Below the pieces are notes generated by a model. That model had not been told where the DNA came from. It saw nothing but the letters and a program-made list of their open reading frames with translations, and ran no database searches. A stretch of DNA of 38,362 nt from an uncultured Flavobacteriaceae bacterium. Lineage in GTDB: Bacteria > Bacteroidota > Bacteroidia > Flavobacteriales > Flavobacteriaceae. The DNA is taken from assembly GCA_937937185.1 (NCBI GenBank), contig CALDCO010000289.1, positions 1 to 38,362 of the forward strand, in the 5' to 3' direction. Positions 33,170-36,537 of this stretch are shown here, in pieces. Position 1 is the first letter of the stretch. Every line of letters begins with the position of its first letter. The translations under genes and the position numbers were made by a program.

Positions 33170-34033
33170 ATGAGACAACTTAAAATTACCAAGCAGGTTA
33201 CTAATAGAGAAACCGCTTCATTAGATAAATATCTTCAAGAAATAGGTAAGGTTGACTTGATTACTGCTGACGAAGAAGTAGAATTAGCGCAGCGTATCAA
33301 AGCCGGCGATCAAATCGCTCTTGAAAAATTGACTAAAGCCAATCTGCGTTTCGTTGTCTCTGTAGCTAAGCAATACCAAAATCAAGGACTTACCTTACCC
33401 GATTTAATAAATGAAGGAAATTTAGGTTTAATTAAAGCCGCACAGCGTTTTGATGAAACACGTGGTTTTAAGTTCATTTCGTATGCAGTATGGTGGATTC
33501 GCCAATCGATATTACAAGCCTTAGCAGAACAATCGCGTATTGTGCGCTTACCGCTTAATAAGATTGGCTCTATTAATAAAATAAATAAAACCTTTGCATT
33601 CTTAGAACAAGCGCATGAGCGTCCGCCAAGTGCTGAGGAAATAGCAAAAGAACTAGACATGACTATTAACGACGTAAAAGAGTCGATGAAAAACTCTGGT
33701 CGTCATGTAAGTATGGATGCACCATTAGTGGAAGGTGAAGATTCTAACCTTTATGATGTATTAAATAGTGGGGAGTCACCAAATCCAGATCGTGAATTAT
33801 TGCATGAATCACTGCGAACTGAAATTGAACGTGCCTTAGAAACATTAACCCCTCGTGAAGCCGATGTTATTCGTTTATACTTTGGTTTAGGAAACCAACA
33901 CCCAATGACTTTGGAAGAAATTGGAGAAACTTTCGACTTAACTCGTGAGCGTGTAAGACAAATTAAAGAAAAAGCAATTCGCAGATTAAAACATACATCT
34001 AGAAGTAAAATATTAAAAACATACTTAGGATAA
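33170..34033 (+). CDS. rpoD: Primary RNA polymerase sigma factor, Bacteroidota type
   Basis: A 287-residue sigma-70 family protein that directs RNA polymerase to housekeeping promoters. Region 1.2 is [20 protein letters not shown]. Region 2 has [37 protein letters not shown] (core binding) and [17 protein letters not shown] (-10 recognition). Region 3 includes [14 protein letters not shown], and region 4 has [16 protein letters not shown] and [20 protein letters not shown] (helix-turn-helix). Region 1.1 and the long non-conserved insert of E. coli RpoD are absent, as usual in Bacteroidota, whose sigma reads TTTG and TAnnTTTG. The many such boxes in this window fit. Confidence 0.95.
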
Positions 34034-34053
34034 AATTCCTAATAACGGTAACA

Positions 34054-34081
34054 AACAGTTATTCATAACTGTTCGTTTTTT
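34054..34081 (+). terminator. First of two tandem terminators after rpoD
   Basis: AACAGTTA (34054-34061) pairs with TAACTGTT (34066-34073) around TTCA, followed by CG and six T. It lies 20 nt after the rpoD stop. Confidence 0.65.
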
Positions 34082-34092
34082 GATTGATGAAA

Positions 34093-34127
34093 GAACCCAG
34101 GGCTGATTACCTTGGGTTCGTTTTTTA
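34093..34127 (+). terminator. Second terminator after rpoD
   Basis: GAACCCAGGG (34093-34102) pairs with CCTTGGGTTC (34110-34119), 10 bp with one G-U pair, followed by GTTTTTT. It is stronger than the first hairpin. Confidence 0.85.
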
Positions 34128-34242
34128 TATAAACTAAAGAATGAATCATTTATGAAACTTAAGTACAAGCCTCACAAAGTCGCCTGATATAAGATGACTT
34201 TTTTATTAATTCAGTACACTAGAAAAATATTTTTGCATTTTA

Positions 34243-34273
34243 TTTGTATACATTTTATTTAAATGTATATTTG
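34243..34273 (+). promoter_or_regulatory. Promoter of the PadR operon
   Basis: TTTG (34243-34246), a 19-nt spacer and TATATTTG (34266-34273) match the Bacteroidota consensus. The start point would fall close to the ATG at 34278, implying a leaderless or nearly leaderless mRNA. Confidence 0.75.
34247..34269 (+). promoter_or_regulatory. Probable PadR operator
   Basis: A perfect 9-bp dyad, TATACATTT and AAATGTATA, with a 5-nt spacer, fills the space between the -33 and -7 boxes and overlaps the latter. ACAT/ATGT half-sites are typical of PadR-family operators, so autorepression is likely. Confidence 0.65.
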
Positions 34274-34277
34274 CACT

Positions 34278-34610
34278 ATGTATAGCAAAGAACTCACAAA
34301 AGGCACTCTACAACCTATCATTTTAAAGTTATTAAGTCAGCATGATAAAATGTATGGATATGAGATTACAAAAAAAGTAAAAGAACTAACTAAGGGGAAA
34401 ATAGATATTTCTGAAGGTGCATTGTACCCAATTTTGCATAAAATGGAAAGCAACAAAATATTAGAAACAGAAAAAGTATATATAGGCAAACGCATTAGGA
34501 AATATTATTCGGTAACCAAATCTGGCAAACAACTAATTACAGATCAAACCAATCAAATCAATGACTTTATAAAAACATTGTCTTTAATATTTAATCCTAA
34601 AACTATTTAA
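34278..34610 (+). CDS. PadR family transcriptional regulator
   Basis: A 110-residue winged-helix repressor with a short C-terminal dimerisation helix (PadR subfamily 2-like). Visible are LTKGTLQPIILKLLSQHDKM, MYGYEITKKVKELTKG (recognition helix region), EGALYPILHKMESNKILE and the wing RKYYSVTKSGKQLI. Such proteins repress their own operon until a ligand, often a toxic compound, binds. The ATG at 34278 is preferred over the in-frame ATG at 34263 because the latter lies upstream of the -7 box and inside the dyad. The stop is 2 nt before the next gene, so the two are coupled. Confidence 0.93.
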   Translation: MYSKELTKGTLQPIILKLLSQHDKMYGYEITKKVKELTKGKIDISEGALYPILHKMESNKILETEKVYIGKRIRKYYSVTKSGKQLITDQTNQINDFIKTLSLIFNPKTI

Positions 34611-34612
34611 AA

Positions 34613-35038
34613 ATGAGACTTACAGAACAAGACATCGCTTTTATCTCTAAAAATTTAGAGCTGTATGGGTTAAAAAGTTTAGAGCTTAAAGAAGACATTT
34701 TAGATCATATTTGTACGCATATAGAAAACTCTGAGGAAGACAAGTTCGATAAAGCCTACCAAGCTGCAATACAGCAATTTGGTGGCTACTTAAATATAAA
34801 GAATATTCAAAGAGAAACCAACTTACAGTTATATTTTAAATCTGCTAAAAATTTTAATAGATTATTATTTATAATAGGTTATATAAATACAATATTATTT
34901 ACAACAGGAATACTCTCTAAAATTATGCATTGGCCATATTTAGGTATATTATTAATACTAGGATTTGCAACCTTTATTTTTATTACACTGCCAATTTATT
35001 TTTACACTGAATATAGGGACAAATTACTTAAATATTAA
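34613..35038 (+). CDS. PadR-associated membrane protein with helical N-terminal domain
   Basis: A 141-residue protein. Residues 1-70 form a soluble helical domain (LTEQDIAFISKNLELYGLK, LKEDILDHICTHIE, AYQAAIQQFGG) like the DUF1700/HAAS domains that often accompany PadR regulators. Two membrane helices follow (about 82-104 and 110-132), with KIMHWPYLGILLILG between them. The same (H/S)WP turn occurs in the next protein, and related MHWP turns occur in flavobacterial GldL-like membrane proteins. The function is unknown; it may sense or respond to membrane stress under PadR control. It starts 2 nt after padR. Confidence 0.8.
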   Translation: MRLTEQDIAFISKNLELYGLKSLELKEDILDHICTHIENSEEDKFDKAYQAAIQQFGGYLNIKNIQRETNLQLYFKSAKNFNRLLFIIGYINTILFTTGILSKIMHWPYLGILLILGFATFIFITLPIYFYTEYRDKLLKY

Positions 35039-35063
35039 TGCTAACATTAAAATAAATCAAAAA

Positions 35064-35252
35064 ATGAAAAAATCAGTTTATGTTTTAGGTTTTTTAACCT
35101 TTTTCTTCTTTAATACAGCATTATTATTTGAAATTTTGAGTTGGCCTCACTCTGCCATCTTTATATTAACAGGCTATATACTATTCAATTTTGGTTTTTT
35201 ACCAACATTATTCTACAAGCTATATAAAGCAGAAAAAAAAAGATTGGCATAA
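35064..35252 (+). CDS. Small two-helix membrane protein, third gene of the PadR operon
   Basis: A 62-residue protein starting at the ATG 35064, 25 nt after the previous stop. It has two membrane helices (about 4-22 and 29-50) joined by FEILSWPHSAIFILTG, which mirrors the KIMHWPYLGILLILG segment of the preceding protein. It ends in a basic tail (YKLYKAEKKRLA). It looks like a truncated paralogue of its neighbour's membrane part, without the soluble domain. The longer in-frame ORF from 34965 overlaps the previous gene and lacks family-like sequence, so I reject that start. Confidence 0.72.
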   Translation: MKKSVYVLGFLTFFFFNTALLFEILSWPHSAIFILTGYILFNFGFLPTLFYKLYKAEKKRLA

Positions 35253-35301
35253 AATAACGGTATTATTTATATAAATATACTAGGTTTTTAAAATCAATAT
35301 T

Positions 35302-35344
35302 TATTTAGTTGCTCCTTAAATAATATTTAAGGAGCAACTAAATA
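35302..35344. repeat. Perfect 43-nt palindrome
   Basis: Two 21-bp arms (35302-35322 and 35324-35344) are exactly complementary around one base. The core is GTTGCTCCTTAAATA and its complement, flanked by TATTTA. It lies between convergent operons (PadR cassette and desaturase). As RNA it would form a long hairpin in either direction, but there is no T run after it, so it is not a standard terminator. Confidence 0.85.
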
Positions 35345-35433
35345 CAAAAACTGCTTTAAAGTCGCCCAAATTTATACTAAGTAAACCCTACCTTAAGGCT
35401 TTTATATTTTTCAATATTCACCTATTTTTTAAA

Positions 35434-36537
35434 TCATATTTCTTGATGTAGAAAGCCATGTTCCCAACCTTCTCTTTTAAGTAATTGAATATGAGACTTA
35501 AAGACATTAATCAAGTTTTCTTCAGATTTATAGTTTATATTATATCTTCTTGATAATTTTTTTAAAATGGGTGTTAAATGCACATAGTGAACATGATTAA
35601 TTTCTGGAAACAAGTGATGTATAACATGATGATTAAACCCTCCAAAAAACACATTAGCGAACACACTTAGAGTACAAAAATCCGATGTTGTTGCAATTTG
35701 GTGTTCTGACCAACTATGATTAAAATTTCCGTTTTCATTAGGAACAGGAAATTTGTGATTCTCCCCAACATGCGTCGATATCAAAGCTATACTAATTACC
35801 AATCCAGAAAAAATATTCATTATAAAAAAACCAAATAACACTGTTTTCCATAGCGGAATAATTAATATAGGAACTATTAAAATAAACGCTATGTATAAAA
35901 GTTTAAAGAGTATTAAACTTCTAAATGTACCTTTAGGGTGCTTGTTAATAATTTTTTTACCAAACCGTTGCGTATAAAAATCTTGAAAATCTCGAATTAG
36001 AAACCAATTAATGGTGTAGCCAAAGATTAGCAAAATTGGCATGTAAAGATGTTGATATTTATGAAATTTAGAAAAAGAATCCTCAGGAAAAATACGGACA
36101 AGCTTAGACTGTTTAATATCACTATCATATCCCATAACATTTGGATATGGGTGATGCGCGTATATATGTCGCATGCGCCATATATATGAATTCCCGCCAA
36201 GTAAATCGAAAATTAAGCTGTATTTTTTGTTAACACCTCTTTTTTTTGAAATCGTGCCATGTGCACCATCATGCCCAACATTTAAGCCAAGTAAAATTGC
36301 AAGTACTCCTAAGATAGCATAACAAGAAAATAGTACCGATTGATAATTTCCAAAATTAATCAATATACTATACATAAATACATACAGTATTATTAATCCC
36401 CAAGCCTTTATATACCATAAAGATGTTGCTTTTTTTGATAAATTATGTTTCAAAAAAAAACTATTTATCTCATCACGCAAAACCCGATAAAACAGATCTT
36501 CTTTTACGAATGCAAGTTGCGGTTCATTATTTTTCAT
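35434..36537 (-). CDS. Membrane fatty acid (acyl-CoA) desaturase
   Basis: A 367-residue membrane di-iron desaturase with the three His boxes: GHDGAHG (about 109-115), HIYAHHPYPN (about 144-153) and HHVIHHLFPEINHVHY (about 312-327). Four to six hydrophobic helices lie between. The third box and the NHSWSEHQIATTSDF segment resemble linoleoyl-CoA or front-end desaturases and other flavobacterial acyl-CoA desaturases; no cytochrome b5 domain is fused. It inserts a double bond using O2 and electrons from a separate carrier. The substrate and position are unknown. The ATG overlaps the upstream GNAT gene by 11 nt, so the two are probably expressed and used together. Confidence 0.88.
   Translation of the reverse strand: MKNNEPQLAFVKEDLFYRVLRDEINSFFLKHNLSKKATSLWYIKAWGLIILYVFMYSILINFGNYQSVLFSCYAILGVLAILLGLNVGHDGAHGTISKKRGVNKKYSLIFDLLGGNSYIWRMRHIYAHHPYPNVMGYDSDIKQSKLVRIFPEDSFSKFHKYQHLYMPILLIFGYTINWFLIRDFQDFYTQRFGKKIINKHPKGTFRSLILFKLLYIAFILIVPILIIPLWKTVLFGFFIMNIFSGLVISIALISTHVGENHKFPVPNENGNFNHSWSEHQIATTSDFCTLSVFANVFFGGFNHHVIHHLFPEINHVHYVHLTPILKKLSRRYNINYKSEENLINVFKSHIQLLKREGWEHGFLHQEI

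Follow-up and report, generated by a model that had tools for sequence, protein, structure and literature searches.

A PadR cassette of Flavobacteriaceae that probably pairs a HAAS-like domain with a GldL-type membrane hairpin

Introduction

What does a PadR-family regulator do with two small membrane proteins encoded immediately behind it? The question is raised by a three-gene cassette in the DNA of an uncultured Flavobacteriaceae bacterium, of which a stretch of 38,362 nucleotides (the window) was analyzed. A prediction made earlier from the letters of this DNA alone (the original prediction) suggested that the cassette could be an uncharacterised membrane-stress or export module. Sections of Ravi et al. 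(2024, PMC11237479) describe a dyad in which a gene for a PadR-like wHTH protein lies beside one for a membrane protein with an N-terminal HAAS-like domain, mention uncharacterised 2TM, 4TM, and 6TM partners, and offer a model, itself a computational proposal, in which a conformational change of HAAS is relayed to PadR. A PadR/DUF1700 operon of Listeria has been tested genetically, as parts of another paper report (PMC6624303). The word uncharacterised therefore suits this cassette and not the dyad as such. Here, we argue that the cassette is very probably a HAAS-PadR dyad with a GldL-type hairpin as its membrane part.

Results

Layout and conserved linkage of the cassette

All three genes lie on the plus strand: padR (34278-34610), ORF2 (34613-35038), and ORF3 (35064-35252). 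The padR gene begins with the ATG at 34278, with a second in-frame ATG at 34263, and its stop ends at 34610; 2 nt later the ATG at 34613 opens ORF2 (141 amino acids), and ORF3 (62 amino acids) runs from the ATG at 35064 to 35252, as the original prediction had it. The 110-residue PadR is a winged-helix repressor matching PF03551 of Pfam with 73.3 bits against a cut-off of 27 (E 1.6e-20), which places it in the PadR family, and it matches 48 distinct PDB sequences at E<=0.001, mostly named PadR. The window's own genome holds two PadR genes at E<=0.001, the second of which (C204) is distant from the cassette PadR.

Upstream, a terminator-like hairpin at 34093-34119 on the plus strand (a 10-pair stem with 6 G-C pairs and a T tail) lies between a sigma factor gene and the cassette; the region holds 2 terminator-like sites, compared with a shuffle mean of 0.4. 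Downstream, a perfect 21+1+21 nt palindrome (35302-35344) separates the cassette from a convergent fatty-acid-desaturase-like gene; it has a terminator score on the minus strand alone, the desaturase side. No further exact copy of these 43 nt is present in the window's own genome, and there is no Rfam match at the gathering score in 33900-35500. The names of both flanking genes were read from the sequence.

A first search for relatives found full-length ORF2 (E<=1.2e-15) in 5 of 99 genomes, the window's own included. We then ran a profile search of 397 genomes of the same family, in which at most about 10 candidates were scored per genome, so that the counts are lower bounds: at least 78 genomes had some match at E<=1e-5, many of these being partial or other proteins such as GldL, and at least 20 carried full-length ORF2 (E<=2.1e-22). 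The cassette is thus patchily distributed in the family. A genome of the window's own genus (G001) has no full-length ORF2, and the window ORF2 is closer to its homologues in three genomes of other genera (G211, G322, and G109; 64-65%) than to that of G002, a member of its own genus (45%), which makes transfer or old paralogy likely.

Comparison of gene neighbourhoods, which had been put forward with the original prediction, showed that the linkage is conserved: padR lies directly upstream of ORF2 in all 20 carriers of the family and in both carriers from other families (G062 and G089). The position of the third gene varies. Among the 20 carriers, 13 have a linked ORF3, 2 a fused one, and 1 an unlinked one, and in 4 none was found nearby. 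It stands directly behind ORF2 in 10 (the G030 copy is without an in-frame start codon at the expected place), ahead of padR in G002, and behind a serine hydrolase gene in G208 and G384, where a stop shortens the G384 copy; the unlinked gene is that of G235. The fused form is that of G120 and G317, whose ORF2 contains a second hairpin, as does the ORF2 of G089 in another family. ORF3 was not found near ORF2 in G401, G375, G328, and G118, nor in G062 outside the family; in G375 a hairpin gene of weak similarity lies in another place (L090, E 8.3e-6), and ORF2 contains an internal stop. The distances of PadR, ORF2, and ORF3 were correlated across 11 trios, from which G030, G384, and G235 were left out (r 0.83, 0.61, and 0.80; 0, 1, and 1 of 2000 permutations as high), a correlation that shared ancestry alone can produce.

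A HAAS-like domain as the apparently constant partner of PadR

ORF2 consists of an N-terminal helical domain followed by a two-helix hairpin. The original prediction had called the first part HAAS/DUF1700-like, and direct scans gave only sub-threshold matches: the HAAS half had no match to Pfam HAAS at E<=1, and its match to the NCBIfam model for permease prefix domain 1 (NF038403) reached E 0.023 and 14.5 bits against a cut-off of 30, the one perm_prefix_1 match among 21 ORF2 members. Plain Pfam and NCBIfam scans leave this half of the protein unnamed. For the related model PF08006 (HAAS_TM), a sample of 296 genomes from the phylum yielded one genome with a match at E<=0.001 and none with a match over the cut-off, and the 14 control genomes yielded none.

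A link came from plasmids. A search for PadR relatives there gave 10 records, 7 of which were examined; the gene following padR was annotated in 5 of the 7, and in L130 and L134 an open frame was chosen by script. In six of these plasmids, from other phyla, a permease-prefix-1 protein comes next. All six proteins exceed the cut-off of perm_prefix_1, with E-values from 1.2e-8 to 1.2e-12, and three of them also match PF22564 HAAS, one over its cut-off; the Spirosoma protein (L131) had no NCBIfam match and was excluded from the profile. The ORF2 N-terminal profile matched that of the six plasmid proteins with an hhalign probability of 89% (E 2.3e-6 for the pair), none of 100 shuffles scored as well, and a reversed control gave 0.07%. 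Residues 5-57 of ORF2 (34625-34783, plus strand) are thus HAAS / permease-prefix-1-like by profile comparison, an assignment that lies below the curated thresholds and was reached only in this way. For the GxP motif that goes with a kinked third helix in the HAAS domain of the dyad, the window ORF2 sequence reads FGGYL, with no proline, and GxP-like letters occur in 2 of the 6 plasmid domains; the structure model of ORF2 was weak (pLDDT 65.9).

Nine further loci (L092-L100, here called A5) encode a PadR with one to four HAAS-like proteins of 180-239 amino acids; in 7 of the 9 padR is the immediate upstream neighbour, and in L094 and L099 it lies upstream at a distance of 0.65-0.8 kb. In L095 and L098 the PadR gene is followed by three or four tandem genes for HAAS-like paralogues of about 220-240 amino acids. 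The N-terminal domains of ORF2 and A5 aligned at 98.7%, but 2 of 100 shuffles were as high, and in both ORF2-A5 comparisons the top shuffled score was near 131, perhaps through a failure of the script or program, so that this control is not clean. Most A5 loci, L096 excepted, show by eye a similar site, ATACATAA...TTATGTATATTTG. Comparison of the A5 membrane part with GldL gave no match (hhalign 0.3%, with 5 of 100 shuffles doing as well). Because the membrane part varies between the ORF2 and A5 cassettes, it looks exchangeable, with HAAS and PadR as the constant part.

This constancy bears on the main rival explanation, in which PadR could itself bind a small molecule. A hydrophobic antimicrobial or dye would then be the inducer, ORF2 and ORF3 would be mere resistance effectors, and HAAS would not touch PadR. 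There is precedent in the parts of the Listeria study that concern the PadR protein LftR, which responds to the antibiotic aurantimycin, and the lltR operon, whose mutant phenotype is brought about by its DUF1700 membrane protein (PMC6624303). Ligand sensing leaves unexplained, however, why the HAAS-like domain stays with PadR while the membrane part varies from a GldL-type hairpin to the A5 part without a GldL match, VanZ, and MacB/ADOP. We regard it as a possibility of limited weight, behind signalling through the HAAS-like domain.

Two membrane hairpins related to GldL

The second half of ORF2 (residues about 80-135; 34850-35017, plus strand) is a two-helix hairpin of the GldL_N type with a KIMHWP turn, and ORF3 is the same kind of hairpin on its own. 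The (I/L)(M/L)(H/S)WP turn between helices that the original prediction described in both membrane proteins is present in each, and its view of ORF3 as the membrane half of ORF2 held up: tblastn with ORF2 in the window's own genome picked up ORF3 at E 5.7e-6, and profile-profile comparison of the two hairpins gave a probability of 99.3%, with none of 100 column shuffles as good. Judged by their profiles, the hairpins are related beyond chance, and the two proteins do not fall into unrelated families. The WP pair is found in the first hairpin of 16 of the 21 ORF2 rows and in all 12 ORF3 rows, and the hairpins of G328 and G118 are without the motif. Because no ORF3 was found nearby in 4 of 20 carriers and these two lack WP, neither is essential to the dyad.

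The tblastn search with ORF2 also found GldL, encoded behind a GldK-like gene and scoring 114 bits in GldL_N, and C64, a 198-residue protein with two HWP-type hairpins. A relation to GldL, one of the families named for comparison in the original prediction, emerged from several searches. The window ORF2 matches GldL_N (PF22827) at E 6.9e-4, below the cut-off; among 21 ORF2 homologues 15 match GldL_N (best 5.1e-8) and 14 match TIGR03513 (best 1.5e-7) at E<=0.1. Weak GldL_N matches call for caution, as matches under the cut-off at E<=1 turn up in 5 of the 14 control genomes too. Three of 12 ORF3 members match GldL_N, the window ORF3 not among them. With the ORF2 profile the PDB gave three matches at E<0.1, all of them GldL/PorL chains (best 7sat_C, E 0.0011). 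Finally, the ORF2 hairpin aligned with 10 GldL N-termini at 98.1% (E 1e-13 for the pair; 0 of 100 shuffles as good) and ORF3 with GldL at 92.5% across 22 columns; the GldL rows came from loci that the ORF2 searches had brought in and were picked by motif, which favours a match, and the Pfam, NCBIfam, and PDB matches are independent of that choice. Taken at the level of sequence profiles, the ORF2/ORF3 hairpin shares ancestry with the one at the N terminus of GldL, a motor protein of type IX secretion. Weak matches to DUF2207_C in 9 of the 21 ORF2 members (best E 0.0027) were set aside as probably generic membrane-helix matches; the PspC, Toastrack, and LiaI models of Pfam and NCBIfam matched neither ORF2 nor ORF3. 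Structure models made without an alignment were weak (pLDDT 65.9 for ORF2 and 81.7 for ORF3).

In Flavobacterium johnsoniae GldL, E49 of TM2 is required and K27 matters, as stated in parts of PMC9127263. The window ORF2 has Phe where GldL has the TM2 glutamate, none of the 21 ORF2 or 12 ORF3 rows has an acidic residue there, and both proteins are without a GldL-type cytoplasmic tail, so they do not qualify as GldL motor subunits. The KIMHWP turn has a Lys that may be read as the equivalent of GldL K27; this residue is retained in 14 of 21 ORF2 rows and in 3 of 12 ORF3 rows.

Hairpins of this type also occur in other small proteins. A family of 174-198 amino acids (C64, at L002 1123-1719, and L104-L108) has two GldL-type hairpins (hhalign to GldL 98.4%), and in 6 of 6 loci they are preceded on the same strand by the homologue of a gene that we take to be LysE-like, which is the immediate neighbour in 4 and no more than about 0.5 kb away in L107 and L108. 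Flavobacterium sp. SM15 has a lone 63-residue hairpin (L031 4989-5180, LSKIMHWPYA), with no PadR recognized among the ORFs listed around it. A scan of genome contigs gave two loci, one with a lone 63-residue hairpin gene and the other with the end of an unrelated transporter; at E<=1e-3, ORF2 had no match in plasmids or phages.

The homology invites the idea that the cassette regulates the type IX / gliding motor, its hairpins mixing with GldL and modulating the motor when the operon is on; GldL is indeed present in this genome. We consider this very improbable: the TM2 glutamate position is non-acidic in every ORF2 and ORF3 row, no gld/por gene was recognized among the ORFs listed at the loci read, and the lone hairpin and the 174-198-residue family make the hairpin look like a general module. 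An export module, the other half of the original prediction, is unsupported for a similar reason, since the TM2 glutamate is missing and no exporter or secretion gene recurs in the limited set of neighbours compared; a membrane-stress or envelope function stands as the likely class.

At 8 loci the cassette lies between sufS- and sufD-like genes (names given from sequence; the other loci are non-suf as far as the query genes show), and at 7 of these (L034, L072, L074, in two pieces, L077, L078, L080, and L082) a homologue of a serine hydrolase, presumably S12-like, follows in the same direction. That this hydrolase is the true effector of a cell-wall or drug-resistance operon, with the hairpins as accessories, is likewise very improbable: G062 and G317 do have homologues close to the cassette too, but the two query hydrolases have none in 13 of 22 loci, among them the window, where the convergent desaturase-like gene follows instead.

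A conserved site in the padR promoter

The sequence ahead of padR fits what we take to be the Bacteroidota-type promoter consensus, TTTG-19 nt-TATATTTG (34243-34273, plus strand). Inside it lies a putative operator (34247-34269), a perfect inverted repeat TATACATTT-5 nt-AAATGTATA; its right arm shares positions with the -7 box TATATTTG. Between the end of this box and the padR ATG there are 4 nt, from which we predict that the padR mRNA is leaderless or nearly so. A TANNTT(T/A)(G/A) box stands 4 nt ahead of the ATG in 20 of 22 padR genes, 5 nt ahead in G002, and is not present in G317; this apparently leaderless start (34266-34278 in the window) is conserved in the homologues. The best 9-nt arms upstream of padR are perfect in 8 of 22 genes and have 6 to 8 matches in the rest, in a scan run without a shuffle control; some perfect-arm sites lie farther upstream of padR than in the window.

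We searched 18 genomes (16 of the 20 carriers of the family, G062, and the cassette-less G001) for ATRCATTN7AATGTATATTTR with at most 1 mismatch. The 15 occurrences comprised 12 at padR, 2 at displaced orf3 genes (G002 and G235), and 1 stray site with one mismatch in G295; the reversed pattern gave 0 over the 18 genomes, and in the window's own genome the pattern with a -7 box occurs once, at padR. Five of the 17 cassette carriers (G002, G211, G322, G109, and G062) lack the pattern at padR and have variants or a degenerate site; G001, G211, G322, G109, and G062 have it nowhere, and G002 only at orf3. The pattern was itself built from cassette loci, which in part accounts for its turning up at padR; what is informative is that it is nearly absent from other places and that it occurs at the orf3 genes that have moved. 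Since the site is nearly confined to the cassette and moved orf3, the regulon is probably the operon alone. In G002 (L033 about 1010-1060) a short reading frame lies right behind the site and -7 box, ahead of the displaced ORF3; by eye, it is perhaps a relic of the padR start.

Discussion

The domains, the homology, the linkage, and a conserved site nearly confined to the operon lead us to favour, on balance, an autoregulated one-operon membrane switch in which a membrane hairpin oligomer controls PadR through HAAS. PadR would sit on the palindrome in its own promoter and keep the operon low. ORF2 would be an inner-membrane protein with both ends inside, and its cytosolic HAAS-like domain may dock on PadR, as the published HAAS-PadR proposal and the constant linkage suggest. 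The ORF2 hairpin and the HAAS-less ORF3 could form an oligomer that answers a disturbed membrane or envelope; the signal would pass via HAAS to PadR, which would release the operator, and more ORF2 and ORF3, in some genomes also the serine hydrolase, would be made. The extra hairpin proteins would then buffer the membrane until the signal stops. On this model the autoregulated module probably senses or buffers membrane stress.

A bolder version, which we think unlikely, would make the proton-channel hairpin of the gliding / type IX motor one use of a membrane-sensing hairpin of Bacteroidota and would have ORF2 and ORF3 join in a mixed GldL-like ring, which would sense proton motive force or the state of the membrane and signal via HAAS to PadR; if true, it would be a one-operon sensor without a kinase. 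The cassette would widen the range of HAAS-PadR stress dyads: they would reach a Flavobacteria-type family, the one to which the window's genome belongs, in a form whose membrane part is akin to the GldL motor. Its three genes and one site offer a very small closed system for direct study of the proposed HAAS-to-PadR signalling. The hairpins also suggest that the GldL hairpin is a wider module, which bears on the origin of the rotary type IX motor.

The dyad as such was known already; the GldL-type membrane part, the extra hairpin gene, and the fused forms appear to be new. Our literature searches of open-licence papers did not find these three features, and the main text of PMC11237479 has 0 mentions of GldL, gliding, type IX, or Flavobacter. 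Like the published dyad, the cassette has a PadR gene adjoining one for a membrane protein with an N-terminal HAAS-like domain; it differs in its GldL_N-type hairpin and stand-alone hairpin gene, which, where displaced, carries the same site. The permease prefix domain 1 (NF038403) proteins beside PadR share the N-terminal domain, gene order, and short spacing, whereas they are fused to VanZ, a MacB/ADOP permease, or other parts. With the N-terminal hairpin of GldL/PorL (PF22827, TIGR03513) the cassette proteins share two helices and an LFK-x-x-HWP-like turn; they lack the motor's cytoplasmic tail and TM2 glutamate and have after helix 2 a conserved LP-x-x-FY-like end that is absent from the GldL rows. 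The closest parallel in regulation is lltR-lmo0600-lmo0601 of Listeria, where, in the sections of PMC6624303 that describe the RNA-seq data, LstR and LltR 'mainly regulate their own operons': there, as probably here, a PadR chiefly controls its own operon with a downstream membrane protein of the HAAS class (DUF1700), but that protein has another membrane domain, and the third gene encodes DUF4097 in Listeria and a hairpin in the cassette.
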